Made by a program: the position numbers and the translations under genes | Shown here: piece by piece, positions 1 through 14,448 of the stretch | How the letters are laid out: every line of letters begins with the position of its first letter | Position numbering within the stretch: position 1 is the stretch's first letter | The notes under the pieces: model-generated | Told to the model about the DNA's origin: nothing | The model's database searches: none | What the model saw: only the letters and a program-made list of their open reading frames with translations | Assembly (NCBI GenBank): GCA_031275255.1 | Contig: JAISPA010000020.1 | Location: 1-17,080 of the forward strand | Length of the DNA stretch: 17,080 bases | From: Acidaminococcales bacterium | GTDB taxonomy: Bacteria; Bacillota; Negativicutes; Acidaminococcales; JAISLQ01 | Direction of reading: 5' to 3'

Positions 1-742
1 CCATAAGCCTGTCATCGTAGCGGTCAAGATTTTCGCGGCGGCAAATTGCGTCGGTCATATAGTTCGGCGTACAGGCGCGTATAAGTTCCTCGCATCCAAA
101 CAGCAAAACTGCGGCAAGGTTATATCCGGCCTTGCCGAATTCGGGGTCGTTTTGATAAATTCCCGCGCTTTTAAGGATTTAGCCGTCGCTCATCTTTCCC
201 CACTGATGGTCTTTTTGATGGTTAACGGCAAGCTGACGCACACACGGCATTAGTCGGCCGAACTCGAAATCGCTTTCTTTGGCATAGGGGAATATCTTTC
301 GCTCGGTGTACTCGGCGGTTTTGCGTTGGTGAATCTGCGCGACCATAGACGAATTGCGCGTGATATCCATATCGCCGTCAGCGTTGCGGTCGTATATACG
401 CCCACCGAACATAACGACCTGCGAATCCGGAGGCACATAGCACCACAGCACGATTTTACCCTTTATCTCTGCTTCTTCAAGTGCAATAAACAGCGTTGGC
501 GCGAACCTTTGCGGATTGTTAAGCGAATTTGCAAAGTCTTGCTTAATCTGCTTGACAACATCCAGCGTGACCCCGGTAACTTCTCCGTTGTCCTCCACGC
601 CGAGCAGGATATATCCGCCGTAACGGTTCGAGAATGAGCAGACCGTTTCATAGACGGCATTCGTGAGTTTGTCCGTGCAACGCTTGAACTCTACCGTTAA
701 GCCTTCGCCGCCGCGGATTAGTTGTAATAATTTTGTGTTCAT
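1..742 (-). pseudogene. AlbA_2 (Schlafen-type) domain protein, broken by an in-frame TAA and cut by the left edge
   Basis: The frame opens with ATG at 742-740 (MNTKLLQLIRGGEG) and carries a typical AlbA_2 domain over about residues 12-120: EFK near residue 19, FSNRYGGYILLGVEDNGEV, and a GGRIYDR segment. This family is usually annotated as an ATP-binding or putative transcriptional regulator, and it is often found beside restriction systems; its biochemical role is unclear. The frame stops at TAA (181-179) after ...GKMSDG. The same frame then stays open to the window edge and reads ILKSAGIYQNDPEFGKAGYN, which is what I would expect to follow MSD in this family. The stop therefore looks like a nonsense change inside a longer gene (family members are commonly over 450 residues) rather than a natural end. 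Only 2 bases separate it from res, so it is the fourth gene of the restriction operon. A truncated but functional 187-residue protein cannot be excluded. Confidence 0.72.
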
Positions 743-744
743 AA

Positions 745-3324
745 TTACAACCCCTTTACGATTTCCAGAAGGTTATCAAACCGCACCGCGCTATCCCATT
801 TCAGGTCTTTATCGCGGAACACCATATAATAACGGTAGTTGGGCCCGGCAAGGTTCGCCCATTCGCGCCCGATACGGCATTTGCGTTCCGATTCGGAGTT
901 TTCCAAGTGGTCGCCTTTCGTTTCTATGAGCAGCAACCGTCCGCTTCCGGTCATAACGATAATGTCAGGATACGCGTGTTCAAAACCGTTGATGCAAAAG
1001 CCTGTCTTTGACGGGTTTCTGTGCCACCAACGTATATTTTGCAAGTTGGCAACCGCCCAGGCTACGTCCTTTTCAAGTCCGTTCATATCTTCCTCCGCCG
1101 TGTACAGCGAGTTCGGAATGGCCTGCGTGAAACGAAGCGGCGAGATTGTTTTGGGAAACGCATATCGCGGCTCTGCGGTAATTCTGCCTTGTTCGCGCCA
1201 CAGCTTAAACTTGCTCTCTCGGTGGGCAAGAAGCAACTCAGTTATCTTACGGCGGATTTTCTCCGCATACTTGTATGGCGACTGCTGTAAATCGTTCAGG
1301 TGCCCCGCCGCAAGCGTTTCGGCCACGCTGTCAACGTAGCCGGAAATACCAGTAAGCGAGTTGTTCTTGTCAAGGTATCGGCGGATTATTGCCTTGCACT
1401 CGGCGATGCGTTTCTCTGTCGGCAGAGAGTTGAACCAGCCGCGGAAGAAATCGTTATCCGTGCCGGACAGCTTCCACGCCTTGGGCGCGGCTCCGCTAAC
1501 GTCCACACGGGCAATCTCCGCGTCAACCGAAAGAAAGTCAATTGCTGCGTCCTTGTTTTTCAGCGTGAAGCCCGCCGATAAATCTTCTTCCGTCAGGAGT
1601 TTCGTTGTGTCGTCCGTGAGTATGGGAATGTCAAGCGGTATGACAAAATGCGGCAGACGCAGGTTGTCAGCGTCTCCCGCAAACTCAGCGGCAATATGGA
1701 ACTCATTCATTTTCTCTCGAACCTCTGCGGCGACTGCGCTGACGCTTTCCTGCGCCGCTGCAAAATCGTCATACGCCTTGGCGGTTTGCTCGGCTTGCGA
1801 CAGTAAATCCGGCTGTGCGGACGGCGTAACCTCTTCGGTGTTTGCGCGTTCGGCAATATGGGCGACGATTGCCGCAATGTCCGTAGGTTCGTCCTGTCCG
1901 GGCAATTCTTCTGTGCCCTGTGCCGTCTGCTGAACAGGCGGCGGTGTTTGCGCGTTCGGAATGGTCGGTTGCGCTTGCGCAACGCGATAATCTTTGCCTG
2001 AAAACCCCGCGCTTTGCAGACCCGCAACGACGCGTTCAAGCGTTTCGTGGAAACTCGCGCTTGAAGTCAGGCAATAGCTGATGTTCAGCGTATCGCTTCT
2101 GCTCTTGGTCGTATTCGGCAAGCGGAGGACGCGCCCCAATATCTGCTCCACGTCCACAACCGACGAACGGTTGGCGACCGTCGCCAAAATATACGCAAAC
2201 GGACAGTCCCAGCCCTCTTTGAGCGCGTTAACCGTAATAATATAGCGTACAGGGCAATCCTCCGACAGCAAGTCCACGCCGCGCAGTTCATTCACATCGG
2301 CAGTCTTTATGGCGATGTGTGATTTCGGAATACCCGCATCCGTTAAGTCCTTTTTCAGTTTTTCAAAAGTCGTGTTGTCATCCTTCCCCTTTGGTTCTGC
2401 CTGGAACAGCGCAATCGGGCGGATATACCTGCCTGTGCGCTCTTTCTCGGCGGCGGCTTCCGCTTCGAGTTTACGGCGAACGTAAATCGCCTCGCCGATA
2501 ACCTCCGCTTTCGTCCGCATATTGTAGACGATGACAGGCAATTTTACCATGTTTTCGCGCTTCAACTGCATGGCGTCCACATACGAGATGATATTCGCGT
2601 CCTTTTTCGGCGTGGCGGTCAGTTCAAGCACGAACGATGGATTGAAGTTTTGCAGCATTTCTTTCGACAGTACGCTTACGGCGTGATGGCTTTCGTCCAC
2701 GATAACCACGGGGTTCAGCTTGCGGATTACGTTAATCAGCGCGGTTTCGTCCGTGTCCGCAAGGAGCAGTGATTTGTCGCCGAAATACTCCGCGAACGCC
2801 GCGAGACTGCCGTTCTCCTGATACGCCTTGCGCCCCTCTTTTTTACTTGTGCGGAAGCTGTCGTAGGACAGCACGAACACCGACAACTGCTGCGTTACGC
2901 TTGACGGCGAGAAGTTCTGGCCATTCAGCAGTTCCGATTTTGAGTAAACTGTGGTGTGGTAGCCGCGCCGCAGTTCTTCGCAATACGGATGTTCAGGATT
3001 TCTTAGGTTATTCAACGTCTGCTCCAAAATAGAATCGGACGGCACGAGCCATACAACCGCCTTAGTTTTTGTGTGCGGCAGACTGTCAAAAATCGGCGCG
3101 ACGGACGCGCAGGCGATAAACGTCTTGCCGCCGCCTGTCGGCGCTTTTACGCACACGTTCGGAACACCGCCGAGCGTGTCACGGTAATGTTCGCCGATAC
3201 CAAGAGGCACGTTTTTTGCCGCCCAAAACTCGCCGAACGCCTCATCCGCGCTCATAGCCGGCAAAAGCGCGAGATATTCGGTTAAGTCGGCGATTACCGT
3301 CTTTTGAAATTTCTTTAGCTCCAT
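745..3324 (-). CDS. res: Type III restriction enzyme, Res subunit (SF2 helicase plus PD-ExK nuclease)
   Basis: This is the ATP-dependent motor and nuclease of a type III system. It acts in a complex with Mod, moves on DNA and cuts near unmethylated sites. Numbered from the upstream TTG at 3330, Walker A is APTGGGKT (63-70), the DEAH-like box is DESHH (212-216), motif III is TAT (238-240) and motif VI is QILGRVLR (396-403). A proline- and glutamine-rich, probably flexible linker spans about 452-545. The C-terminal nuclease shows YPD (787-789) and ETK (803-805), the PD-ExK core. I place the start at ATG 3324-3322 because a GGGGG ribosome site (3336-3332) lies 7 bases before it. The TTG at 3330, which overlaps the mod stop by 4 bases, is only 1 base from that site. 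Length is about 859 residues, slightly short of typical Res. All key motifs are intact, so I expect an active protein. Confidence 0.93.
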   Translation of the reverse strand: MELKKFQKTVIADLTEYLALLPAMSADEAFGEFWAAKNVPLGIGEHYRDTLGGVPNVCVKAPTGGGKTFIACASVAPIFDSLPHTKTKAVVWLVPSDSILEQTLNNLRNPEHPYCEELRRGYHTTVYSKSELLNGQNFSPSSVTQQLSVFVLSYDSFRTSKKEGRKAYQENGSLAAFAEYFGDKSLLLADTDETALINVIRKLNPVVIVDESHHAVSVLSKEMLQNFNPSFVLELTATPKKDANIISYVDAMQLKRENMVKLPVIVYNMRTKAEVIGEAIYVRRKLEAEAAAEKERTGRYIRPIALFQAEPKGKDDNTTFEKLKKDLTDAGIPKSHIAIKTADVNELRGVDLLSEDCPVRYIITVNALKEGWDCPFAYILATVANRSSVVDVEQILGRVLRLPNTTKSRSDTLNISYCLTSSASFHETLERVVAGLQSAGFSGKDYRVAQAQPTIPNAQTPPPVQQTAQGTEELPGQDEPTDIAAIVAHIAERANTEEVTPSAQPDLLSQAEQTAKAYDDFAAAQESVSAVAAEVREKMNEFHIAAEFAGDADNLRLPHFVIPLDIPILTDDTTKLLTEEDLSAGFTLKNKDAAIDFLSVDAEIARVDVSGAAPKAWKLSGTDNDFFRGWFNSLPTEKRIAECKAIIRRYLDKNNSLTGISGYVDSVAETLAAGHLNDLQQSPYKYAEKIRRKITELLLAHRESKFKLWREQGRITAEPRYAFPKTISPLRFTQAIPNSLYTAEEDMNGLEKDVAWAVANLQNIRWWHRNPSKTGFCINGFEHAYPDIIVMTGSGRLLLIETKGDHLENSESERKCRIGREWANLAGPNYRYYMVFRDKDLKWDSAVRFDNLLEIVKGL

Positions 3325-3326
3325 TG

Positions 3327-4886
3327 TCAATCCCCCAATAGTTTCCGAATGTCACGCGGGATTTTCTTAAACTTGATACCCCACCGCTCCAAGTCCGCCG
3401 CCGCGAGCGCGCACATATCCGCATAAATCACATACCGCTCTGCCTTTTTGAGCCGCCGCAGGAAGTCCACGTCAAGCGTTGTGGTATCAAAGCGCTCGTA
3501 GTAGAACCAATACGCCGTGTGGAACGCTTCACCCAAATAATACGGTATGCCGCCTGGCGAGTACGCCGTTTTCGTTTCGGTGTACCAAATGTACTCGCGT
3601 ATTTTTTCCGCATCCAGGTTTTCGTTGAGGTTGCCGTCCTCCAACAGAAGCCGATCGCCGAGTTCGCAGAACGCAAACCCGCCGCCCGTACCGGGCGTAT
3701 CGCCGTAACCGTCAATGACGCGCCTGACCCGCTCGGCGGTGATGCTTTCGGCGTAACCTTCCATTTCGATAAGGATAAAGCGCCGGTTGCCGCCGTCGCG
3801 CTTATTCATGTTCAGCACGGCATGGGCAGTCGTACCGCTGCCGGCAAAGCTGTCAAGAACGATGTCGCCAACTTGTACGTTGGCAATAGTTAAAATTCTT
3901 TGCAACAGTCGAGCAGGTTTAGGTCCATTGAAAGACCCGTTATCAAGCATTTCTTTTACTTCTTTTGCCCCCTCTTGGCTGTGCCCAACATCTTTGTAGA
4001 AGAATATTGACTGCACCGCCATGCCGTCAAATTTCAGTTCTGATAAGAACCTCTTAATTTGCGGAACACTGTTGCCGTCAGATCCGAAATATATACGATT
4101 GTCAGCGAGTCTCTCGAAAAACGCGTTTTTCGAGAGCCTCCAACATCTTGATGTTGGAGGCTCAATTACACGCCCCGACGGGGCGGTAATTGGATAGTCG
4201 CACTCCGCATTATAAGTTTTTACTGACATATCGCTTGGTTTCCAAACACCTCTTGGGTCGTTATCGGGGTTTGAGTATCTCGCGTTTGCTTCTTCTGTGC
4301 GAGGCAATCTGCCAATCGTAAAGCAGTCTTTATTTTTGACATACATCACCACATAGTCGTGACTTGCCGAAACAAACTTTGCGTCATTCTTCGGCGAGTA
4401 TGCTCGTTCCCAGACAAATTGAGATACAAAATTTCTCGCGCCAAATATCTCGTCACAGACAAACCGCAGACTCGCTTGTTCGTTATCATCAATGCTGATA
4501 AAAATCGCCCCGTCGTCGGCCAGCAGCCGCGAGAGCAGCCGCAGGCGCGGGTACATCATACACAGCCACTTGTCGTGCCGCGACAAGTCCTCGCCCTCTT
4601 TGCCCACAACGTCACCGAGCCATTTGCGGATTTTCGGATCGTTCACATTGTCGTTGTACACCCAACCCTCGTTGCCTGTGTTGTACGGCGGGTCGATGTA
4701 TATGCACTTGACGCGCCCCTCGTACTGCGGCAACAACGATTTCAGCGCGTCGAGGTTGTCGCCGTGAATAATCACATTGCCCGTGTCTGGCTCGCCGTAG
4801 GCGTACTGCGGCTCCAACACGCGGTACGGCACAGCCTGGTGGTGGTTTATAACTTTGTCCTTGCCGAGCCAGTTGAGTACGGGCAT
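3327..4886 (-). CDS. mod: Type III DNA adenine methyltransferase, Mod subunit
   Basis: Mod recognises the target site for the whole type III system and methylates adenine N6 using S-adenosylmethionine. The order is that of a beta-class enzyme: catalytic DPPY at 65-68 (context CIYIDPPYNTGNEGWVYND), then the target recognition region, then the cofactor motif DSFAGSGTT at 345-353. The recognition region keeps family-conserved stretches: PSGRVIEPP (237-244), CWRLS (248-252), DNRIYFG (262-268) and KRFLSE (278-283). Length is 519 residues, on the short side for Mod. An upstream GGAG lies 9 bases before the ATG. The stop lies next to the res start. Base composition is mosaic: sampled blocks between about 3,900 and 4,440 are 37-50% GC, whereas blocks just outside are 63-67%. 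Three large palindromes lie in 4107-4192. Both suggest that the recognition region has a separate history from the catalytic parts. Confidence 0.94.
   Translation of the reverse strand: MPVLNWLGKDKVINHHQAVPYRVLEPQYAYGEPDTGNVIIHGDNLDALKSLLPQYEGRVKCIYIDPPYNTGNEGWVYNDNVNDPKIRKWLGDVVGKEGEDLSRHDKWLCMMYPRLRLLSRLLADDGAIFISIDDNEQASLRFVCDEIFGARNFVSQFVWERAYSPKNDAKFVSASHDYVVMYVKNKDCFTIGRLPRTEEANARYSNPDNDPRGVWKPSDMSVKTYNAECDYPITAPSGRVIEPPTSRCWRLSKNAFFERLADNRIYFGSDGNSVPQIKRFLSELKFDGMAVQSIFFYKDVGHSQEGAKEVKEMLDNGSFNGPKPARLLQRILTIANVQVGDIVLDSFAGSGTTAHAVLNMNKRDGGNRRFILIEMEGYAESITAERVRRVIDGYGDTPGTGGGFAFCELGDRLLLEDGNLNENLDAEKIREYIWYTETKTAYSPGGIPYYLGEAFHTAYWFYYERFDTTTLDVDFLRRLKKAERYVIYADMCALAAADLERWGIKFKKIPRDIRKLLGD
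4107..4140. repeat. Palindrome A inside mod
   Basis: Positions 4111-4136 form a perfect 26-base palindrome with no loop; the half arm is CTCTCGAAAAACG. With one mismatch (4110/4137) it extends to 34 bases, 4107-4140. It lies wholly inside the mod coding sequence and encodes roughly residues 250-260 (RLSKNAFFERL). It shares its right end with the next palindrome. Confidence 0.9.
4134..4163. repeat. Palindrome B inside mod
   Basis: Two perfect 14-base arms (4134-4147 and 4150-4163; left arm GAGCCTCCAACATC) flank a 2-base TT centre. On the coding strand it covers exactly ten codons, residues 242-251 (EPPTSRCWRL), running from a GAG codon to its complement CTC. It overlaps palindrome A by 7 bases and palindrome C by 1 base. 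Confidence 0.9.
4163..4192. repeat. Palindrome C inside mod
   Basis: Arms CAATTAC (4163-4169) and GTAATTG (4186-4192) enclose CGCCCCG-A-CGGGGCG (4171-4185). The result is a 14-pair stem with a single bulged base (4170) and a 1-base centre. It encodes about residues 232-242 (PITAPSGRVIE), a conserved stretch of Mod proteins. Confidence 0.88.
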
Positions 4887-4889
4887 AAG

Positions 4890-5087
4890 CTATTGCTCCT
4901 TGTCGGTTTTTACTTGTTTCGCGGCTTTTGTCCGTCCGTCGAGAGGTTTGGGCGTTCCCTTCGGGATAATCCAATCTCTGCCCAATCGTGTTGCGCCATT
5001 GATTTTCCCGCTGCCACAGAGAGCTTGCACTTGACGGATTTTTATACCCCATAATTCTCCGATTTCTTTTGTTGTCATCCAATCCAT
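4890..5087 (-). CDS. Small helix-turn-helix protein, first gene of the type III restriction operon
   Basis: A 65-residue protein with a MerR/excisionase-like DNA-binding fold: TTKEIGELWGIKIRQVQALC (residues 5-24) forms the helix-turn-helix, and INGATRLGRDWIIPKG forms the wing. A charged tail follows (KPLDGRTKAAKQVKTDKEQ). I choose ATG 5087-5085 because GAGG (5098-5095) lies 7 bases before it; the upstream ATG at 5093 is only 1 base from that GAGG. The stop is 3 bases before mod, so the two are co-transcribed and probably translationally coupled. Proteins of this type are common as the leading gene of type III restriction loci. A role as a controller of the operon promoter is plausible by position but is inference. 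Recombination directionality factor is an alternative, although no integrase is in view. Confidence 0.82.
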   Translation of the reverse strand: MDWMTTKEIGELWGIKIRQVQALCGSGKINGATRLGRDWIIPKGTPKPLDGRTKAAKQVKTDKEQ

Positions 5088-5138
5088 ACGCATACCTCGC
5101 CCGCAGCAAATATCACTTTAGAACATGCCAATAATTTC

Positions 5139-5167
5139 ACTATACTACGTTATGACGCATTATGCAA
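5139..5167 (-). promoter_or_regulatory. Promoter of the restriction-modification operon
   Basis: Read on the minus strand: TTGCAT (5167-5162), a 17-base spacer, then TATAGT (5144-5139). The start site would fall about 45 bases before the helix-turn-helix gene. A direct repeat TTATG (5150-5154 and 5160-5164 on the plus strand, 10-base period) lies in the spacer and -35 area and could be an operator. Confidence 0.65.
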
Positions 5168-5242
5168 GGGAAACTTGTTCATTCACAAAAAGTTGAAAAT
5201 TGCAAGTTAAATTGCCCGGCGAGGCAAGATAGGCGCGGACGA

Positions 5243-5271
5243 TTGTAAAATCGCCGCCGGTATGATATTAT
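5243..5271 (+). promoter_or_regulatory. Promoter of pyrR-udp-deoB
   Basis: TTGTAA (5243-5248), a 17-base spacer and TATTAT (5266-5271), with an extended -10 TGA (5263-5265). The start site would be near 5278, leaving a leader of about 70 bases before pyrR. The leader begins with a weak AGGG/CCCT hairpin (5284-5298). I see no PyrR-type antiterminator or terminator in it. Confidence 0.65.
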
Positions 5272-5300
5272 GCACATAGATAAAGGGGATAACGCCCTGA

Positions 5301-5909
<609 letters not shown>

Positions 5910-5926
5910 CCGGAGGGAAATCGCCC

Positions 5927-6712
5927 ATGCCCAATTATGCGCAGGAAGACGAGGTTTTATATCATACCGGTTTGAGCAGGCGGATGCTGGAAAACGCGCG
6001 CTGCGTCCTTTTACCCGGTGACCCGGGGCGGGTGGAGAGCATTGCCGGCGTCTTTGTCCGGCCGCGCTTTTTGACTGCGCGGCGCGAATACACCAGCTGG
6101 CTGGCCTATTGCCGGAACAAGCCGCTGCTGGTCTGTTCAACCGGCATGGGCGGCCCTTCGGTCACCATCTGCGTGGAAGAGCTGGCGCGGCTTGGCGTTA
6201 AAAATTTTATCCGGGTAGGCACTTCCGGTTCCATACAACAAAGAGTAAAATTGGGCGACGTAGTCATAAACAACGCCGCGGTCAGGCTTGACGGCGCGTC
6301 AGGGCATTACGCGCCTTATGAATTTCCCGCCGCCGCGGATTTTGAGCTTACCGGCGCTCTTGTGAAAAGCGCGCGCCGCGCGGCGGTTCCCTGTCACGTC
6401 GGCATAGCGGTTTCATCGGATACTTTTTGGCCGGGACAGGAACGTTATGACAGCTTTACCGGCTATGTTCTGCCAAGTCTGAGGGGCTCGCTGGCCGTAT
6501 GGAGGCAGTTGGGCGCGCTCAACTGCGAAATGGAAACGGCCGCGCTTTTTGTTTCGGTTCAGGCTTTGGGTCTTTCCGCGGCCTGCATCTGCGGCATTGT
6601 CGCCGCGCGGGCGGATTCGGAGGCCGTCGCCGGCCGGGATGTTTATGAATTGGCCCTGCGGCGTGTATACGCCGTCCTCCGGGAGTTTTTCGCGGATACG
6701 GAGGCGCTGTGA
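5927..6712 (+). CDS. udp: Uridine phosphorylase
   Basis: Catalyses uridine + phosphate to uracil + ribose-1-phosphate in the cytoplasm. The 261-residue protein shows the nucleoside phosphorylase family marks in order: LPGDPGRVE (phosphate site), STGMGGPSVTI, RVGTSGSIQ, then SSDTFWPGQERYD, whose GQER carries the Gln and Arg that bind the uracil ring in uridine phosphorylases, and EMETAALF (ribose-binding Glu and Met). The GQER pocket argues for uridine rather than purine nucleosides. From memory it resembles the enterobacterial Udp closely through the VRLDGAS...PGQERYD stretch. A GGAGG site precedes the ATG. Its stop TGA overlaps the deoB GTG start, which implies translational coupling. Uracil released here can be taken by PyrR, and ribose-1-phosphate by DeoB. 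Confidence 0.92.
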   Translation: MPNYAQEDEVLYHTGLSRRMLENARCVLLPGDPGRVESIAGVFVRPRFLTARREYTSWLAYCRNKPLLVCSTGMGGPSVTICVEELARLGVKNFIRVGTSGSIQQRVKLGDVVINNAAVRLDGASGHYAPYEFPAAADFELTGALVKSARRAAVPCHVGIAVSSDTFWPGQERYDSFTGYVLPSLRGSLAVWRQLGALNCEMETAALFVSVQALGLSAACICGIVAARADSEAVAGRDVYELALRRVYAVLREFFADTEAL

Positions 6713-7902
6713 AAAGGGCGGCCGTTCTTTTGCTTGATTCTTTCGGCATAGGCGGCGCGCCGGACGCCGGGGCTTTCGGCGACGCCGGCGCCGATACTTT
6801 CGGGCATATTTATGAATACAGGCAAAAAATGAACAAACCGCTTGCGCTGCCTAATCTCTACCGGCTGGGCCTTTTGCGGGCGGCCGGACTGAGCCGGGGG
6901 CAGCCGTTTGCTTGTGCGGACTCTTTCCCCGTACAAGCGGCATACGGGTATGCCAGTCCGGTCAGCCGGGGCAAGGATTCCCTGAGCGGCCATTGGGAAA
7001 TCGCCGGCGTGCCGGTAACCTTTGAATGGGGCTATTTTTCGGCGGAGGGCAACTGTTTCCCGCCGGAACTTCTGGAATCGCTCATAAAAACGTGTGCCCT
7101 GCCCGGGATACTGAACGGCCGGCGCGCCTCCGGCACGGAAATATTGGAAAAACTGGGGGAAGAACATATAAGGGGCGGCCGACCGATTGTCTATACCTCG
7201 GCGGACAGTGTTTTGCAAATCGCCGCGCACGAGGAAACCTTCGGGTTGGAGCGGCTCTATTCCGTTTGCGCGGCCGCTTTTTGCCTGACGCGAAAATATA
7301 ACGTCGCGCGGGTCATCGCGCGGCCTTTTGCCGGGAATAAAGCCGGCGCTTTTGTCCGCACCGGCAACCGCCGCGATTACGCTGCGGCCGCTCCGGGAGA
7401 AACATTGCTTGATCGCGCCCTGGCAAGGCAAAGGGAGGTAACGGCCGTCGGCAAAACCTATGATATCTTCGCGCAAAGGGGAATAAGCCGCTATGAAAAA
7501 GGCGGCTGCTTAACCGAACTTTTTGACAAAACGCTTAAAGCCTTGCCGGATTTGCCTGACGGCGGCCTGCTTTTTGCCAATTTCGTTGATTTCGACTCGC
7601 GCTACGGGCATCGGCGGGACGCGGACGGCTACGCGCGGGCGCTCGAATATTTTGACCGCCGCCTGCCGGAAATTTTCACTCTCCTCGCCGCCGAAGACCT
7701 TCTGGTGATAACCGCCGACCACGGCTGTGATCCTGCCTGGGGCGGCAGCGACCATACCCGTGAGAACATACCGGCCTTGTTTTTCGGGCGGCTGCTGCCG
7801 CCGGGCTGTATCGGACACCGGCGGAGCTTTGCCGATATCGGGCAGACAATAGCCGGCCATTTGTCGCTCGGACCTTTGCAAAACGGGATAAAATGTTTCT
7901 GA
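6709..7902 (+). CDS. deoB: Phosphopentomutase
   Basis: Interconverts ribose-1-phosphate and ribose-5-phosphate (and the deoxy forms), linking nucleoside breakdown to PRPP and the pentose pathway. It belongs to the alkaline-phosphatase-like metalloenzymes. Visible marks: LLLDSFGIGGAPDAG (8-21), GKDSLSGHWEIAGVPV (88-103), FVDFDSRYGHRRD, TADHGCDPAW and GSDHTRENIPAL, which supply the two-metal ligands. Length is 397 residues, normal for the family. From memory, the long GHWEIAGVPV...EWGYFS and VDFDS..GHRRD segments are closer to the proteobacterial form than to the Bacillus form. The usual GKDT is GKDS here, so the residue expected to carry the phosphate would be Ser91 rather than Thr. The GTG start overlaps the udp stop, with GGAGG at 6700-6704. 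Confidence 0.94.
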   Translation: MKRAAVLLLDSFGIGGAPDAGAFGDAGADTFGHIYEYRQKMNKPLALPNLYRLGLLRAAGLSRGQPFACADSFPVQAAYGYASPVSRGKDSLSGHWEIAGVPVTFEWGYFSAEGNCFPPELLESLIKTCALPGILNGRRASGTEILEKLGEEHIRGGRPIVYTSADSVLQIAAHEETFGLERLYSVCAAAFCLTRKYNVARVIARPFAGNKAGAFVRTGNRRDYAAAAPGETLLDRALARQREVTAVGKTYDIFAQRGISRYEKGGCLTELFDKTLKALPDLPDGGLLFANFVDFDSRYGHRRDADGYARALEYFDRRLPEIFTLLAAEDLLVITADHGCDPAWGGSDHTRENIPALFFGRLLPPGCIGHRRSFADIGQTIAGHLSLGPLQNGIKCF

Positions 7903-7955
7903 CAAATATTTCACTATTTTCCCCGCCGGGAACATTTTATTTCAGGTGTTAACTA

Positions 7956-7964
7956 TGATATAAT
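7956..7964 (+). promoter_or_regulatory. Extended -10 promoter of cstA
   Basis: TGATATAAT: a perfect TATAAT (7959-7964) with TGN directly upstream. The -35 position (about 7936-7941, TTTATT) is poor, as is common for extended -10 promoters. It sits 39 bases before the cstA ATG. I see no clear terminator between the deoB stop (7902) and this site, so read-through from deoB is possible. Confidence 0.55.
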
Positions 7965-8002
7965 GACCGTAAGACAATATACTTTTTGAAGGGGCATACA
8001 AA

Positions 8003-9724
8003 ATGAATATTCTTACGGTGGTAATGGGCGCGGCGGTTTTCTTAGCGGCCGCGTACGCCGTTTACGGCCGGTTTCTGGGCGAGCGCGTTTTCCGGCTTGA
8101 CGAGTCCGCGGCTACGCCGGCGGTTGCAGTGAATGACGGCCTTGATTTTGTCCCTGCCGCTAAATACGCGTTGCTGGGGCAGCATTTTTCGACTATTACT
8201 GCGGCCGGGCCGATCAACGGGCCTATTTTAGCCGCAGTGCTTTTCGGTTGGGCGCCGGCGCTGCTTTGGGTATTGCTCGGCAGCGTCTTTATCGGCGGCG
8301 TCCAGGATATGGGCAGCCTGATTGCCTCCGTCCGTTACAAAGCCAAATCCATAAGCGAAATAGTCAGGGTAAATGTTTCGCAAAAGGCCTGGCTGATTTT
8401 TATGATTTTCATCTGGATAACCATCGTCTATCTGATCGTGGTTTTCACCGATGTTACCGCCAGTTCTTTTGTCAGCAACATTGTATTGGGCTCGGGCGAG
8501 ACGGTGAGAGGATCGCACATTGCCAGCTCATCGCTTATGTATCTTGTTTTTCCGGCCGTTATAGGGCTTATGACCCGTTATTACAGAATAAACGCGTATA
8601 TTGTCAATATAACAATCCTTTCCCTTACCGTGCTATGTATCTGGGCCGGGCAGGTTTTCCCGGTTGTTTTGCCTTTTCCCGATATAGTTTTGCAGCAGAA
8701 AGTTTGGGGCGCCGTCATACTGCTTTACTGCTTCGCCGCGTCCATGCTGCCGGTATGGCTGCTTATGCAGCCGCGCGGCGTATTGGGAGGGTATCTTTTG
8801 TACCTGGCTTTATTTGTCTCAGCCGTCGGCGTTCTTTTCGGCGATTATTCGATAGAATATCCGGCTTTTACCACGCTCGGCGACAGTGGTTTTTTCGACG
8901 GCGGCTTTTTGCTGCCGATGTTCCCTCTGCTTTTCATTACTGTTGCCTGCGGCGCCTGTTCCGGCTTTCACTCGCTCGTCTCCTCGGGAACCACCAGCAA
9001 GCAGCTGGAATATGAGACGGACGCCAGGGCGGTGGGCTACGGCGGCATGCTGCTCGAAGGCATGGTCGCGGTCATCTCCATTGCCTGCGTAATGATAATG
9101 ACGCAAGATTCGCCTGTCCTGAACAAAGCGCCCAATTTCGTCTACGCGACCGGCATCGGCAATTTTATGGAATTTATCGGCGTACCGATCGTCTTTGGCA
9201 TAACCTTTGGCCTTTTGGCCTTCACCACCTTTGTTTACGATACACTTGACGTATGCGCGCGCCTCGGCCGGTACGTCGTGGAAGAGATAACCGGCTGGAG
9301 CGGGACGAGGGGCAGTATTTTAAGCGCGGGCCTGACCGTGTGCGCGCCGCTGTTTTTGATTTTCCAGACCATCAGGGACAGCAGCGGCCAGATCGTGCCG
9401 ATATGGCGGGTGTTTTGGAATACCTTCGGCGCTTCCAATCAATTGCTGGCGGCGCTTGTACTCGCCAGCGTATCATTCTGGCTGCTGAAAAGCCGCCCGC
9501 AGTCAAAAGTATGGCTGGCTTCTTTTATACCGTCCGTCATTATGCTGATCATGGCCAACTGGGCCCTGTTCAATGCTATTTATGACGGTTGGGTTGCCGG
9601 CAAAGGACATTCGGTCATTCCTGTTGTCTCTGCTGTCCTGATGCTTTTGTCTTTTATTGTCAGCGGAGAGATTTTCCGTTCCATGCTGCGGGTGACCGAT
9701 AATATAACCAAACCGCGACCGTAA
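8003..9724 (+). CDS. cstA: CstA-family membrane transporter (carbon starvation protein A)
   Basis: A 573-residue, highly hydrophobic protein with many membrane segments across its length. It matches the CstA family by the stretches LDFVPAAKYALLGQHFSTITAAGPINGPILAAVLFGWAPALLWVLLG and GGVQDMGSLIASVRYKAKSISEIV near the N terminus, and SGFHSLVSSGTTSKQLEYETDAR in the middle. CstA proteins have been linked to peptide uptake and, in enterobacteria, to pyruvate uptake; the substrate here cannot be read from sequence. The length matches the short CstA form rather than the roughly 700-residue enterobacterial one. GAAGGGG (7988-7994) lies 8 bases before the ATG. It stands alone between the salvage operon and the iron operon, on the same strand as both. 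Confidence 0.92.
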   Translation: MNILTVVMGAAVFLAAAYAVYGRFLGERVFRLDESAATPAVAVNDGLDFVPAAKYALLGQHFSTITAAGPINGPILAAVLFGWAPALLWVLLGSVFIGGVQDMGSLIASVRYKAKSISEIVRVNVSQKAWLIFMIFIWITIVYLIVVFTDVTASSFVSNIVLGSGETVRGSHIASSSLMYLVFPAVIGLMTRYYRINAYIVNITILSLTVLCIWAGQVFPVVLPFPDIVLQQKVWGAVILLYCFAASMLPVWLLMQPRGVLGGYLLYLALFVSAVGVLFGDYSIEYPAFTTLGDSGFFDGGFLLPMFPLLFITVACGACSGFHSLVSSGTTSKQLEYETDARAVGYGGMLLEGMVAVISIACVMIMTQDSPVLNKAPNFVYATGIGNFMEFIGVPIVFGITFGLLAFTTFVYDTLDVCARLGRYVVEEITGWSGTRGSILSAGLTVCAPLFLIFQTIRDSSGQIVPIWRVFWNTFGASNQLLAALVLASVSFWLLKSRPQSKVWLASFIPSVIMLIMANWALFNAIYDGWVAGKGHSVIPVVSAVLMLLSFIVSGEIFRSMLRVTDNITKPRP

Positions 9725-9818
9725 CCGCCCGGATGGTATCTGCGGCGCCTCATCGCGCGGTAAAAACCGGCTTTTGCTTAACGTCAGGCGATTCCGAGGA
9801 TAAAATTCGAAAATATTG

Positions 9819-9847
9819 TTGACAATAAAGTTAGCGTATGCTAACAT
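9819..9847 (+). promoter_or_regulatory. Promoter of the iron uptake operon
   Basis: A consensus TTGACA (9819-9824), a 17-base spacer and TAACAT (9842-9847). The start site would be near 9854. Operator 1 (9830-9845) covers the spacer and most of the -10, so a bound repressor would block polymerase. The leader is then about 140 bases long. Confidence 0.8.
9830..9845. promoter_or_regulatory. Operator 1 (GTTAGC-N4-GCTAAC), probable DtxR-family site
   Basis: GTTAGCGTATGCTAAC: perfect 6-base arms around a 4-base centre, embedded in the promoter. The GTTAG half-site resembles the core of DtxR/IdeR boxes, although the spacing between halves is wider than in the classic DtxR site. The regulator encoded at 16738 onward is the obvious candidate; that link is inference. 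Confidence 0.72.
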
Positions 9848-9863
9848 TACTTTGGGTGATTAA

Positions 9864-9879
9864 GTTAGCCGATACTAAC
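9864..9879. promoter_or_regulatory. Operator 2 (GTTAG-N6-CTAAC)
   Basis: GTTAGCCGATACTAAC: 5-base arms, same 16-base length as operator 1, starting 34 bases after it (about three helical turns). It lies just downstream of the predicted start site. Confidence 0.68.
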
Positions 9880-9896
9880 ACAAACGCCGGAGGAAA

Positions 9897-9912
9897 GTTA
9901 GCCTGTTATAAC
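9897..9912. promoter_or_regulatory. Operator 3 (degenerate, GTTA-N8-TAAC)
   Basis: GTTAGCCTGTTATAAC: the left half is identical to the first seven bases of operator 2, while the right half is weaker (TAAC). It begins 33 bases after operator 2, keeping the phase. The regular spacing is the main reason to accept it. Confidence 0.5.
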
Positions 9913-9916
9913 ATCG

Positions 9917-9956
9917 GCCGGCGCCACCCGCAGCGGCCGCGCCGGCAGCAGCGGGT
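9917..9956 (+). other. Leader RNA with two mutually exclusive stems before the FTR1 gene
   Basis: GCCGGCGC (9917-9924) can pair with GCGCCGGC (9939-9946) as an 8-base-pair stem. ACCCGC (9926-9931) can instead pair with GCGGGT (9951-9956). The two stems cannot form together. No known riboswitch class is recognised, and the GC-rich context makes chance pairing possible. Confidence 0.3.
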
Positions 9957-9996
9957 TGCTTCAACGGTAAGTTATTGTCGGAAAGGAGGCAGCAAA

Positions 9997-11199
9997 TTGC
10001 GGAAATTTTTATCCGTATTAGCCGTACTGGCCTTGTTGTCCGCCGTTTTTGCGACGGACTCGCTGGCGGCCAGCAAATATAAAACCTGGAACGCGATGGT
10101 TGACGATATGGATAAAGTGCTCAACAAATCTTATTCCCTTTATACGGCCGGCAATGTGAATGCCGCCAAAGGGCAGGTCAACGCCGCGTATTTTCAGTTT
10201 TATGAGAAGCTTGGCTTCGAGAAGACCGTGATGTCCTATATTTCCGGCAGCCGGGCGACCAAGGTGGAGTACCAATTCACTATCATAAAAAAGGCCATGA
10301 CCAACAAGCGACCGGCGGCGGAAGTCAAGGCGGCGCTTGACGATCTTTCCAAGTGGCTCAGAGAGGACGCCAATCAGCTCGATGGCACGAAAGAAAGCGA
10401 GTGGGGAGTGTTTTTCAGTTCGCTTTTGATCATTACCAGGGAAGGGTTTGAGGCGATCATTGTGGTTGGCGCCATTGTCGCTTACTTGGTGAAAAGCGGC
10501 AACGCCAAAAAGACGCGCGCGGTTTACCACGGCGCTTTTATCGCGCTGGTGGCCAGCGTTTTGCTGGCTTTTGCCTTAAATAACATTTCCAGCCTGGGCG
10601 GCGCCAATCAGGAGATAATTGAAGGGGCGACCATGCTGGTCGCCGTGGCGGTGCTGTTTTACGTCAGCAACTGGATGGTGGGCAAAGCCGGGGCGGAGGC
10701 CTGGTCGGCCTACATAAAAGACAAGGTGGAAAGCTCGCTCGGCGGCGGCAGCCTGTTTTCGCTCGCTTTCGCGGCCTTTCTCGCCGTCTTTCGCGAGGGG
10801 GCCGAAACCATCCTTTTTTACCAGGCGCTCATGGGCACCACCAGGACTTACACTAACATGCTCTGGGCGGGGCTGGGGGTCGGTTGTGTGCTTTTGGCGG
10901 TTATTTACGCCGCTATCCGTTTTTTGAGCATAAAACTACCGCTGAAACAATTCTTTATCGGCACAAGTTCCTTGTTGGCGATCATGGCGTTTTCTTTTTT
11001 GGGCAAGGGCATCAAGGAACTGCAGGAAGGCAATGTCGTCGGCGTAACGCCGGTGGGCAGTTTTGAGTCGGTTGAGCTTCTGGGCATTTACCCGACGCTG
11101 GAGACCCTTTTGCCGCAGGCCGTGCTGCTATTCGTCACCCTGGCCACTTTTGCCTTGCAAATGCGCAAAAGCGGCCTGTTCAGGAAAAGGGCGGCTTAG
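9997..11199 (+). CDS. FTR1-family high-affinity iron permease
   Basis: Moves iron across the cytoplasmic membrane. I start it at TTG 9997 because AAAGGAGG (9982-9989) lies 7 bases before, and because this gives a clean signal peptide (MRKFLSVLAVLALLSAVFATDSLA, cut near residue 24). The in-frame ATG at 9838 falls inside the promoter. A periplasmic helical region follows to about residue 135, then a membrane domain with the two family-defining REXXE motifs, REGFE (148-152) and REGAE (266-270), which bind iron in the pore. Length is 400 residues. It heads an operon with a P19-like protein, a DUF2318 protein and an ABC exporter-like module, the arrangement seen in P19/FTR1 (FetM/FetP) systems. 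The N-terminal exported domain is typical of bacterial FTR1 proteins and distinguishes it from the bare yeast-type permease. Ferric versus ferrous preference cannot be read directly. Confidence 0.94.
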   Translation: MRKFLSVLAVLALLSAVFATDSLAASKYKTWNAMVDDMDKVLNKSYSLYTAGNVNAAKGQVNAAYFQFYEKLGFEKTVMSYISGSRATKVEYQFTIIKKAMTNKRPAAEVKAALDDLSKWLREDANQLDGTKESEWGVFFSSLLIITREGFEAIIVVGAIVAYLVKSGNAKKTRAVYHGAFIALVASVLLAFALNNISSLGGANQEIIEGATMLVAVAVLFYVSNWMVGKAGAEAWSAYIKDKVESSLGGGSLFSLAFAAFLAVFREGAETILFYQALMGTTRTYTNMLWAGLGVGCVLLAVIYAAIRFLSIKLPLKQFFIGTSSLLAIMAFSFLGKGIKELQEGNVVGVTPVGSFESVELLGIYPTLETLLPQAVLLFVTLATFALQMRKSGLFRKRAA

Positions 11200-11213
11200 A
11201 TTTTGGGGTAGTA

Positions 11214-11228
11214 CAGGGCATAGCCCTG
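11214..11228 (+). other. Small hairpin between the FTR1 and P19 genes
   Basis: CAGGGC-ATA-GCCCTG, a 6-base-pair stem with a 3-base loop, 14 bases after the FTR1 stop. The downstream bases are A-rich (CTAAAATAAAAAA), not T-rich, so it is not an intrinsic terminator on this strand. It may protect or process the mRNA. Confidence 0.4.
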
Positions 11229-11255
11229 CTAAAATAAAAAATTGGAGGAGAAAAA

Positions 11256-11825
11256 ATGAAAAAAGAAAAAATGTTCGCAGTATTTTTGGCACTGATCCTA
11301 TTGGTCGGCACGGCCGGCTACGGCACCGCTTTAGGGGCGATTTCCCCCAGCAGCGCCGCCGGGTTCGAGGAGTTTCCGATTGGCGATGATATCGAAGTCG
11401 GCCCGCTCAATGTGGCAGGCGTGTATTTCCAGCCCGTTGATATGGAGCCGGCCGGCAGCAGCTTGCGCGCCGCCGATTCCGACATGCACATAGAAGCCGA
11501 CATAAGCGCGCTGGAAGGCAACGAACTCGGCTACGGCGCGGGCGATTTCGTACCCTACCTGACCGTCCGCTATGAATTGATAAAAGAAGGCGGCAGGACT
11601 ATTTCCGGCACTTTCATGCCCATGAGCGCAAGCGACGGCCCGCATTACGGCGCGAACGTCAAATTGGACGGCGCGGGGAAATATAAAGTCCGCTTTATTA
11701 TTGAAAACCCGGAAGGGCAAGGGTATCTCCTGCATACCGACAAGGAGACCGGCGTTACCGGCAGATTCTGGAAAACGCCGCTGGTGGCCGAATGGGATTT
11801 TAACTTTGTTCCCAGAGCCTGGTAA
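11256..11825 (+). CDS. P19/Tp34-family periplasmic iron-transport-associated protein
   Basis: A 189-residue exported protein (signal peptide about 1-27, MKKEKMFAVFLALILLVGTAG...ALG). Family members are dimeric periplasmic proteins that bind copper and iron and feed the FTR1 permease. The match is strong: FPIGDDIEVGPLNVAGVYFQPVDMEP (40-65), DMHIEADISAL (76-86), MPMSASDGPHYGAN (121-134) and HTDKETGVTGRFW near the C terminus. The methionine after FQPVD, the His of MHIEAD, the MPM pair and the His of GPHYG are the expected metal ligands, and all are present. A GGAGG site precedes the ATG. It lies between FTR1 and the DUF2318 gene, as in Campylobacter p19 and enterobacterial fetP loci. Hairpins on both sides could set its mRNA level apart from its neighbours. 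Confidence 0.93.
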   Translation: MKKEKMFAVFLALILLVGTAGYGTALGAISPSSAAGFEEFPIGDDIEVGPLNVAGVYFQPVDMEPAGSSLRAADSDMHIEADISALEGNELGYGAGDFVPYLTVRYELIKEGGRTISGTFMPMSASDGPHYGANVKLDGAGKYKVRFIIENPEGQGYLLHTDKETGVTGRFWKTPLVAEWDFNFVPRAW

Positions 11826-11852
11826 CAAAGGCCGCGATTGATGGATTTTAAT

Positions 11853-11894
11853 GCATTTTGCCGCGGCGGGCCAGGATCCGCCGCGGCAAAATGC
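11853..11894 (+). other. Strong stem-loop between the P19 and DUF2318 genes
   Basis: Two perfect 17-base arms (11853-11869, beginning GCATTTTGCCGCGG, and 11878-11894) around an 8-base loop. A short TTTT follows 5 bases after the stem (11900-11903), so it could act as a leaky terminator. With the next ribosome site starting at 11905, an mRNA stability or processing element is equally likely. Confidence 0.75.
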
Positions 11895-11916
11895 GAAATT
11901 TTAGAAAGGAGGCGCC

Positions 11917-13158
11917 GTGCTTAAATATCTGATTCAGGTAACGCAAAATTTGCTGGCGCCCGTGATCATACTGGCGCTTTTCGCGGCTTTGGCGGCAAAA
12001 GGGCGACATAACCGGCTGCTTTACCGGGGGCTCGCGGCCGGCGCTGCGGCCGCCCTGCTGTTGGCCGCCTTCAAAACCTTTACGGTGCTGGTCAACCGCG
12101 AGTATGTCAATATTGTGCTCCTGACGCTGGGCATAGTGACGGAACTTTTTCTTTTGGCGTTGTTATGGGGGAGTGCCAAAGGAAGAAGCGCCGGAGCGCA
12201 CGGATGGGCGCTGGACGCCATAGGCGCGGTTTTTGCCGCCGCGCTGGCTTTTTATTATCTTCCTGACATATTTTTATATCCGACGGAATTTTTGCTGGCC
12301 GGCGAAAGCGCTTTCAGCACAGACTTTCTGTTTAAGACAACAGGCTATTTGTGCGGCCTTTTGCTTACGGCGCTGATTGGCGCGGTGCTTTTTAGGACCG
12401 CCGCTTGTTTGCCTGCCGGCTTTTCGCTTGGGGTTTTCGGTTTGTGCCTGACGGTGGGGCTGATTTCCCAGGCGTCCCTGCTGGTCCAATTTTTGCTGGC
12501 GCGGCGGATCATACCCATGAAAGACTGGCTGTTTGCCCTTTTAATGCCGGCGATCAATTACCGGGATTTTTTTCTGTACATTATGATGGCGGTAACGCTG
12601 ATACTGCCTTTGCTGTTATACAAGCGCAGTTTGCGGGTGCGGGAGCCTTACGCCAACCCCGCCGAGCTGCGCAAGCTAAAGTCCGGCCTGCGCCTGCGCC
12701 GCCGTTTTAGCGCCTTGACCGTCGCCGGGTATATCGGCGTGCTTTTTTGCCTGACCGCCGTCAAGGCTTACGCCGAGCGCGAAGTAGTGCTTTCGCCCAT
12801 CGAGCCGATGAAAATAAGCGACGGCGTGGTTGTGTTGCCGCTGGAGACGATAAACGACTGGCGGCTGCACCGTTACGCCTATGAAGCCGGCGGCGGCGTA
12901 CAGGTACGTTTCATAGTTATCAGGAAGAACAATGCAGCTTACGGCGTGGGCCTGGACGCCTGCGATATATGCGGCCCCACCGGCTACTATGAGCGCGACG
13001 ACCAGGTCATCTGCAAACTTTGCGACGTTGTTATGAACAAGTCGACCATCGGGTTCAAGGGCGGCTGCAATCCCGTGCCGCTGGCCTATGCCCTGAGAGG
13101 CGGCGCCATGTTGATCGACACAAAAGAGCTTGAAAAAGAGAAAACAAGATTCAGGTAA
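11917..13158 (+). CDS. DUF2318 (Fe-S-membrane type) membrane protein
   Basis: A 413-residue protein with about seven to eight membrane segments in residues 1-235, a basic loop (KLKSGLRLRRR, 253-263), one more membrane segment (about 264-284) and a C-terminal DUF2318 domain. The domain carries CDIC (349-352), CKLC (366-369) and C384, a five-cysteine set expected to bind a metal or Fe-S centre, probably on the outer face. Genes of this type follow p19 in Campylobacter and enterobacterial iron systems, where a redox or iron-handling role is assumed but not proven. The start is GTG at 11917 with AAAGGAGG (11905-11912) 4 bases before. It ends 12 bases before the first permease. With the flavolipoprotein at 16278 it could form an electron path for iron reduction; that is inference. 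Confidence 0.85.
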   Translation: MLKYLIQVTQNLLAPVIILALFAALAAKGRHNRLLYRGLAAGAAAALLLAAFKTFTVLVNREYVNIVLLTLGIVTELFLLALLWGSAKGRSAGAHGWALDAIGAVFAAALAFYYLPDIFLYPTEFLLAGESAFSTDFLFKTTGYLCGLLLTALIGAVLFRTAACLPAGFSLGVFGLCLTVGLISQASLLVQFLLARRIIPMKDWLFALLMPAINYRDFFLYIMMAVTLILPLLLYKRSLRVREPYANPAELRKLKSGLRLRRRFSALTVAGYIGVLFCLTAVKAYAEREVVLSPIEPMKISDGVVVLPLETINDWRLHRYAYEAGGGVQVRFIVIRKNNAAYGVGLDACDICGPTGYYERDDQVICKLCDVVMNKSTIGFKGGCNPVPLAYALRGGAMLIDTKELEKEKTRFR

Positions 13159-13170
13159 GGGGGAACCCGT

Positions 13171-14448
13171 ATGTTCTGGCGAATGGTCAAAGGGGCGCTT
13201 TTGCGGCAAAAAGGCAAGATGCTGCTGATCGCCTTTACTATAGCACTGGGGGCGTCGCTGTCCACCGCCATGCTCAATGTCATGCTGGACGTCGGCGACA
13301 AGGTGAACAAGGAATTAAAAACTTACGGCGCGAACATTAACGTCCTGCCCAAGGGCGCTTCGCTCATCGGGGATCTCTATGGGGTCAGCGGCGGGTCGGG
13401 CGTTGCGGACAAATATTTGCTGGAAAACGAGATCGGCCGGATAAAGACCATATTTTGGGCTTTCAACATAGTCGATTTTACGCCCTATCTGGAAACGGCG
13501 GCGAAAATCGGCGGCAACGACGCGCGTCTTGCCGGCGTGTGGTTTAACCATCACCTGGCCCTGCCCACAGGCGAGGAACTGGATACCGGCATGCAGAACA
13601 TGAAAAACTGGTGGCGCCTGTCCGGCGGCTGGCTGTCCGACGCCGACGACGACGGCGCCATGCTCGGCAGCCTGGCCGCGGAGCGGCACGGGGTAAAGCC
13701 TGGCGACAAATTAACGGTCGAGGCGCGGGGGCGGAAAAAACAATTGCAGGTCAGGAGCGTGTTTAACGCGGGCGGCAAAGAAGACGAGGATATTTACGTT
13801 ACGCTGAAGACCGCGCAGGAGCTTTCCGGGCGGCCGGGCCTGGTCAGCCGCATAGAAGTGAGCGCCCTGACGACGCCGGACAACGAATTGTCGCGCCGGG
13901 CGGCGCAGGACCCCAAAAGCCTTTCCACCAAAGAGTGGGAAACATGGTATTGCACAGCCTATGTAAGCGCGATTTGCTATCAAATCAGCGAAGTTATTAC
14001 CGACTCGGCGGTAAAACCCATCCGGCAGGTAGCGGAAGCGGAGGGGGCGATACTGGCGAAAACGAAACTTTTAATGCTGCTGATCACGGTATTCAGCCTG
14101 GCGGGTTCGGCGCTGGGCATATCCAATCTGGTTACCGCCAGCGTGCTGGAACGCGGCAGCGAAATAGGGCTTTTAAAAGCGGTGGGGGCGCGTAATTTCC
14201 CAGTATCCCTGTTGGTGCTTGCCCAAATCATGATCGCCGGCCTGGCCGGAGGGACGGCCGGCTATTTCGCCGGCCTGGGTTTTGCCCGGGTTATCGGGCA
14301 TTCGGTTTTCGGCGCGGCGATAACGGTAAAGCCGATAGTGATACCGCTGGTGGCTGTCCTTACCCTGCTGGTCATTTTGGCGGGCAGCGTCCCGGCCGTA
14401 AGGATGCTGCTCGCATTGAGGCCGGCGCAGGTCTTGCACGGCAGGTGA
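13171..14448 (+). CDS. FtsX-like (MacB-type) ABC transporter permease, first of a pair
   Basis: A 425-residue permease with an N-terminal membrane helix (about 18-37), a large extracytoplasmic domain (about 40-300) containing YGANINVLPKG, and three C-terminal membrane helices. The coupling segment VLERGSEIGLLKAVGA (about 328-343) is the cytoplasmic contact typical of the FtsX/MacB class. Such transporters are usually mechanotransmitters or lipoprotein and peptide movers rather than pores for small ions, so its role in an iron locus is not obvious. The equivalent genes sit at the same place in P19/FTR1 operons of Campylobacter (next to the DUF2318 gene). AAGGGGGAA lies before the ATG. It overlaps the second permease at TGATG. 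Confidence 0.9.
   Translation: MFWRMVKGALLRQKGKMLLIAFTIALGASLSTAMLNVMLDVGDKVNKELKTYGANINVLPKGASLIGDLYGVSGGSGVADKYLLENEIGRIKTIFWAFNIVDFTPYLETAAKIGGNDARLAGVWFNHHLALPTGEELDTGMQNMKNWWRLSGGWLSDADDDGAMLGSLAAERHGVKPGDKLTVEARGRKKQLQVRSVFNAGGKEDEDIYVTLKTAQELSGRPGLVSRIEVSALTTPDNELSRRAAQDPKSLSTKEWETWYCTAYVSAICYQISEVITDSAVKPIRQVAEAEGAILAKTKLLMLLITVFSLAGSALGISNLVTASVLERGSEIGLLKAVGARNFPVSLLVLAQIMIAGLAGGTAGYFAGLGFARVIGHSVFGAAITVKPIVIPLVAVLTLLVILAGSVPAVRMLLALRPAQVLHGR

Follow-up and report, generated by a model that had tools for sequence, protein, structure and literature searches.

Overlapping palindromes with coupled amino acid changes in the target-recognition domain of a Type III mod gene

The mod gene of a Type III restriction-modification system from an Acidaminococcales bacterium contains, in the part coding for its target-recognition domain (TRD), overlapping palindromes that share one arm segment, and amino acids encoded on opposite arms change together among related proteins. 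The gene was studied within a 17,080-nucleotide stretch of DNA, called the window throughout. The explanation to which we give an even chance is that these overlapping quasipalindromes are kept complementary mainly by replication template switching, as suggested by the co-variation of their arms. The palindromes had been noticed in a first-pass annotation of the window, but the shared arm and the coupled amino acid changes, which are the main result, were overlooked there.

The mod gene (3327..4886, reverse strand) encodes a Type III DNA methyltransferase subunit of 519 amino acids with the motifs DPPYNTG and FAGSG. The order of DPPY, TRD and FxGxG is that of a beta-class N6 methyltransferase, and mod is adjoined downstream by its partner res (745..3330, reverse strand), coding for a Type III restriction subunit (ResIII, DEAD). 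The TRD segment, residues 150-335 (3882..4439, reverse strand), served as the search query and is common to Mods with other backbones. Residue 250 of Mod lines up with residue 350 of EcoP15I, so the palindromes encode the distal, DNA-reading lobe of Mod, in which residue 250, next to a conserved Trp, may touch DNA. Simple repeats that could make mod phase-variable were sought in 700-5300, and no array scoring at least 30 was found. Beside the Type III system lies an AlbA_2 (Schlafen-type) gene (179-742), and an ORF that looks similar by eye is present at 6480-7928 of the related contig L211. Two further repeats were observed in the window. A perfect inverted repeat at 11853-11894, with 17-base arms and an 8-base loop, lies between an ORF end (11825) and an ORF start (11917) and is probably a terminator or attenuator, and a 22-base perfect palindrome at 15317-15338 codes for part of KALGAPSA in a permease-like ORF (14445-15587).

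Palindrome A (4107..4140, reverse strand) has 17-base arms with one mismatch, is perfect over 26 bases at 4111-4136, and codes for W249-L260 (W R L S K N A F F E R L). Palindrome B (4134..4163, reverse strand) has 14-base arms around a 2-base centre and codes for E242-L251 (E P P T S R C W R L). These dimensions agree with those first given for A (34 bases with the mismatch included) and B. Three palindromes do succeed one another as had been described, but they are not simply tiled without a gap, because A and B overlap: they have the arm bases 4134-4140 (reverse strand) in common. This 7-base segment pairs either with 4157-4163 in B or with 4107-4113 in A, so the full stems A and B are mutually exclusive. 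The codon of residue 250 (4137..4139, reverse strand), referred to below as the toggle codon, is AGG (Arg) in the window and complements B. Palindrome C (4164..4191 plus one flanking pair, reverse strand) is weaker; its single bulged base had been reported correctly, but the 14 pairs once attributed to it come to 13 in the folded RNA and 12 in the alignment register. The centres of the palindromes measure 0-10 bases, and A, B and C together encode Mod residues 232-260.

Codon shuffles were used as a control: codons were drawn anew from the usage of the gene in question while the protein stayed unchanged (20,000 draws, or 2,000 for the longest perfect arm). In the window the observed pairing was reached by 6 draws for A, none for B and 5 for C. 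The corresponding values for A in the five related DNAs introduced below were 0 (L150), 7 (L146), 0 (L112), 0 (L113) and 3 (L211), those for B ranged from 0 to 6 over the six DNAs, and the longest perfect arm was equalled in 0 of 2,000 draws in each, the window included; L150 carries a 40-base perfect palindrome. Palindrome C exceeds the shuffles in just three of the DNAs (5 of 20,000 draws in the window, 3 in L150 and 86 in L112), as its pairing is reached by 903, 2,120 and 13,891 draws in the other three. Since such controls rarely or never match A, B and C in the window, the palindromes are real and not accidental, as the first-pass annotation had held. The motif PPxGRxW favours complementarity, giving CCNCC..GG..TGG, a seed for B; even so, chance and codon usage around it are an extremely improbable explanation, and as the sole cause they are refuted by the codon shuffles together with the DNA covariation and the coupling of residues described below.

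The location of the palindromes inside a coding sequence also recalls the palindromic elements of Rickettsia, and a small element of this kind might have been inserted in frame. The Mod protein has no added residues relative to its homologues, and in nine genomes the A-arm pattern was found at this site alone in five and was absent from four. With neither extra residues nor many copies, the two defining features, a palindromic element or dispersed repeat was rejected, and we regard an in-frame insertion as hardly credible; the initial opinion that this is no inserted repeat therefore stands.

The search for relatives of the TRD, designated family I, covered 380 genomes of the class, samples of two orders (394 and 295 genomes) and 299 genomes from a family; viral contigs were scanned by sequence pattern. 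A 223-genome sample from a third order gave no TRD match at E 1e-75, which is a weak negative. Six DNAs with at least 73% TRD identity were obtained: the window, L112 (genome G144), L113 (the same place as L002, G007), L146 (G1064), L150 (G1354) and L211. Palindromes A and B are kept in all six, and L144, at 69% TRD identity, is without A. L211 is a contig from a viral collection, prophage-like by eye, and was recovered by the pattern scan only; its stretch 1-14881 carries a clade Type III mod plus two further ORFs that, again by eye, resemble methyltransferases. No family I relative was found in plasmids and phages at 60% identity or more, and a protein query of viral contigs likewise gave none. 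Another hit of the A-arm pattern, in the phage contig L161, was set aside, as it sits between two ORFs and is probably a terminator by chance.

Within the two TRD halves the five relatives match the window at an identity of 0.70-0.80, and beyond them at 0.31-0.60, indicating that they have other Mod backbones. Identity at fourfold sites was 14/39, 11/43 and 18/49 outside the palindromes in three member pairs and 9/13, 7/12 and 11/15 inside them in the same pairs, three of the six members having been left out of this count because their alignments split. Silent sites in these three pairs are thus near saturation outside the palindromes and kept inside.

At the protein level, 183 clade members were collected from two TRD-region searches, each limited to its 120 best hits out of some 8,000 scored, which leaves room for a larger clade. 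The analysis used 180 of them, three having been dropped for misfitting a strict motif (residues 253/257 being K-L, K-L and K-F); the evidence at the DNA level comes from six family I sequences and four of a second family. Proteins with this TRD type range from 333 to 693 residues and differ outside the TRD, and their few named sources include Treponema, Petrimonas, Massilibacteroides and Clostridia. Such a spread could be expected if the palindromes were a recombination hot spot, where broken or extruded DNA drives the exchange of TRDs between Mod backbones. We consider this very unlikely, since protein distances left and right of the palindromes correlate better (0.45) than those of other neighbouring TRD quarters (0.20 and 0.26), the outer TRD quarters go with the backbone, and L067 bears another TRD on a backbone that, judged by eye, resembles those of P0003 and P0004. 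The same correlation gives no support to the proposal that domain-exchange breakpoints lie at 4107-4192.

Covariation was examined in an alignment of the six family I DNAs. In stem A, 96.1% of cells are paired, none of 500 shuffles reached either this pairing or the covariation score, and every slid register pairs far less. The column pair 78/93, which joins the third base of Ser252 to the third base of residue 257, occurs as C-G, U-A, A-U and G-C, all four Watson-Crick types. In stem B, 89.3% of cells are paired (5 of 500 in the shuffle test) and two pairs have changed on both sides. Two of the five covariation measures did not beat shuffles in either stem, namely both-side-changed pairs (241/500 for A, 49/500 for B) and further pair types (133/500 and 330/500), as few pairs vary. 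Thirteen of the 17 pairs of A are invariant in the six sequences though some could change silently on both sides, suggesting an extra constraint. C showed no covariation in a fixed register, its value being reached by 390 of 500 shuffles. The family I stems A and B contain a single G-U cell, at the very centre of A, and C contains two more. The compensatory changes are kept in unrelated hosts. The suggestions that codons keep the structure, and that paired positions might co-vary in homologues, were borne out for A and B by these changes and, for the first, by the codon shuffles as well: the site is a near-perfect inverted repeat whose arms change together.

The pairing of A extends to changes that alter the protein. 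Residues 253 and 257 in the 180 proteins were K-L in 126, K-F in 27, L-N in seven, Q-W and Q-L in five each, and K-S and R-L in two each, with E-L, A-A, Q-M, E-S, K-E and E-K once each. Complementary codons (AAR/TTN, giving K with F or L; TTR/AAY, L with N; CAR/TGG, Q with W; AGR/CTN, R with L; GCN/GCN, A with A; GAR/TCN, E with S) allow the combination found in 169 of the 180, leaving 11 that do not fit (Q-L five times, K-S twice, E-L, Q-M, K-E and E-K). Likewise, Phe251 is accompanied by Lys259 in six of seven Phe rows among 123 distinct rows, TTY being complementary to AAR. For 38 distinct arm peptides, 555 pairs could be formed, against 528.3 +/- 3.3 after the arms were re-paired, and none of 3,000 re-pairing trials came up to the 555. 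With 54 distinct peptides and 17 registers, the true register gave z = 10.6, 15 of the 16 others gave -1.8 to 2.0, and one, displaced by one base, gave 4.3. Common descent is not removed by either of these tests, but it affects the other registers just as much. In a tree-based test of 253/257, on a poorly resolved tree with three supported pairs, a mean of 1.1 changed the same way, 0.0 the opposite way and 1.9 showed no difference; the control pair 253/250 was about alike (1.3, 0.1 and 1.6).

Residue 250 is Arg or Ser in 176 of the 180 proteins (R 102, S 74, T 3, A 1), and Thr and Ala were seen only with Phe at 251. Its codon is AGG in two of the six DNAs (the window and L112) and AGT in four, and neither AGA nor AGC occurs, even though each is one silent transition away whereas the step between AGG and AGT is a transversion. 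The base concerned is either G72, which pairs with C49 of B, or T72, which pairs with A99 of A. When the surrounding block was excluded from the TRD tree, residue 250 required 42 changes compared with 39.6 for shuffled labels (41 and 39.8 with another model and column set). This change ratio was the highest of 38 two-state columns, the others lying at 0.20-0.91, each on a tree without its own block. Residue 250 has two main states and no memory of descent on this poorly supported tree, and at the protein level it has undergone recurrent parallel changes toward the complement of one arm or the other, with AGG or AGT in six of six DNAs.

A second TRD family was found by counting hairpins with arms of at least 12 bases and loops of at most 6 in 785 kb of related loci, the window and L211 being left out. 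There were six hairpins in mod TRDs (77 kb), one in the rest of mod (184 kb), four in other ORFs taken stop-to-stop (456 kb) and ten between ORFs (68 kb). Four of the six in mod TRDs belong to clade members and two to L067 and L006, which have a divergent TRD type; no further mod TRD in the 785 kb has a hairpin with 12-base arms. The hairpins of this second type, family II, occupy the same protein site (PPSGR[HC]W). Four family II DNAs, L067, L006, L251 (an Enterococcus plasmid) and L254 (G336), have A- and B-like stems there, the A-like stem having 18 perfect pairs in L067, 15 in L251, 16 in L254 and 11 in L006 (more with G-U). Compensatory changes in these stems (L254 left out) are C-G/A-T, T-A/C-G and A-T/G-C, and G-U pairs in the mRNA sense occur in L006 and L251. 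The middle segment is GGCAC (His, matching A) in L067, L251 and L254 and GGTGC (Cys, matching B) in L006, the two states differing in two adjacent bases. The two-state residue is thus Arg/Ser at W+1 in family I and His/Cys at W-1 in the divergent family. Of the other family II candidates, L252 and L253 were without such stems or without the motif and L255 was without the motif, and no viral contig was found. By eye, the backbones of L067, P0003 and P0004 are identical over the first 150 residues and their TRDs differ.

A scan of this site in 130 Mods gave no clear signal in the remainder (mean z 0.19 +/- 0.11); only two of 111 non-clade Mods stood out, both of family II, so that the palindrome was not found to be a feature that Mod TRDs generally have there. 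Elsewhere in mod genes, L091 bears an inverted repeat at 4451-4483 (perfect 16-base arms, 1-base centre) close to the 3' terminus of a different mod (residue 484), and in L107 the mod residues aligned to window residues 27-56 gave an inverted-repeat score of 20, absent from a scan with arms of 10 and loops of at most 8.

Under template switching, a stalled nascent strand would fold back, copy the opposite arm and return, so that a mutation in one arm would be either erased or copied into the other. The codons of the PPxGRxW family motif would be the probable seed. The middle segment could be copied from its left partner (B) or its right partner (A), and these two templates would flip residue 250 between Arg (AGG) and Ser (AGT), a toggle that may affect DNA recognition. 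From such a mechanism one would expect near-perfect arms, paired substitutions that change amino acids, recurrence, and two states with a shared arm, all of which are seen.

Most of this would equally follow from selection for a hairpin. Here the mod mRNA would form mutually exclusive hairpins controlling translation, decay or folding, or the DNA a protein-bound cruciform, and the paired changes would be ordinary compensation. The predicted RNA folds are strong, with z scores against dinucleotide shuffles of -7.7 in the window, -5.6 in L150, -3.8 in L113, -5.9 in L067 and -4.9 in L251, and the compensatory changes in unrelated hosts, the single A/B layout in two TRD families and the mRNA-sense G-U pairs of L006 and L251 point the same way. 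However, the rest of the Mod family lacks a clear signal, the structure tracks particular TRD types rather than the operon and dictates residues of the DNA-reading lobe, Rfam covariance models gave no match up to E 1 in 3300-5200, and G-U is nearly absent from stems A and B of family I. Structure selection also fits less easily with the switch that is always AGG/AGT in the six DNAs and with the limitation to two of the TRD types examined. We regard it as a serious rival, though less likely than template switching, and the two may both be at work.

It is also conceivable, but unlikely in our judgement, that the overlapping palindromes are a self-templated switch that flips the residue next to the conserved Trp often enough to be a contingency locus changing Type III specificity or activity. 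DNA self-complementarity, and not protein chemistry, appears to set the amino acids allowed at two positions of a domain that determines, through its residues, which DNA a defence enzyme reads. Co-varying residues in protein alignments need not, then, be contacts, and it becomes a testable question whether template switching steers protein evolution over the long term or acts as a switch.

No title or abstract on palindromes in mod TRDs stood among the open-licence papers listed, which is not proof of absence. The TRDs of Type III mod genes are known to vary by swaps of the whole domain or by switching through repeat tracts; the DNA-reading domain likewise varies here, but no repeat array was found in 700-5300. 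In E. coli, template switching makes quasipalindromes more perfect (PMC7202029): imperfect inverted repeats are perfected by the copying of one arm, as proposed for mod, where the palindromes instead overlap and are common to different hosts. The inverted-repeat arms of yeast coding genes are recurrently homogenised by template switching (PMC8604942); the resemblance lies in arm homogenisation, multi-base codon changes and recurrent parallel events, and the difference in that here a single gene site has been kept across large divergence and its middle arm has two templates. RNA hairpins, too, are created and maintained by template switching, with compensatory changes made by copying (PMC8794818), whereas the present case is protein-coding and concerns a DNA methyltransferase. 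Finally, the long inverted repeats in coding sequences of Nematomorpha mitochondria, which lie in conserved regions (PMC6649704), are comparable in their coding location, but the palindromes of mod are bacterial, short and confined to one domain, and they co-vary across hosts.
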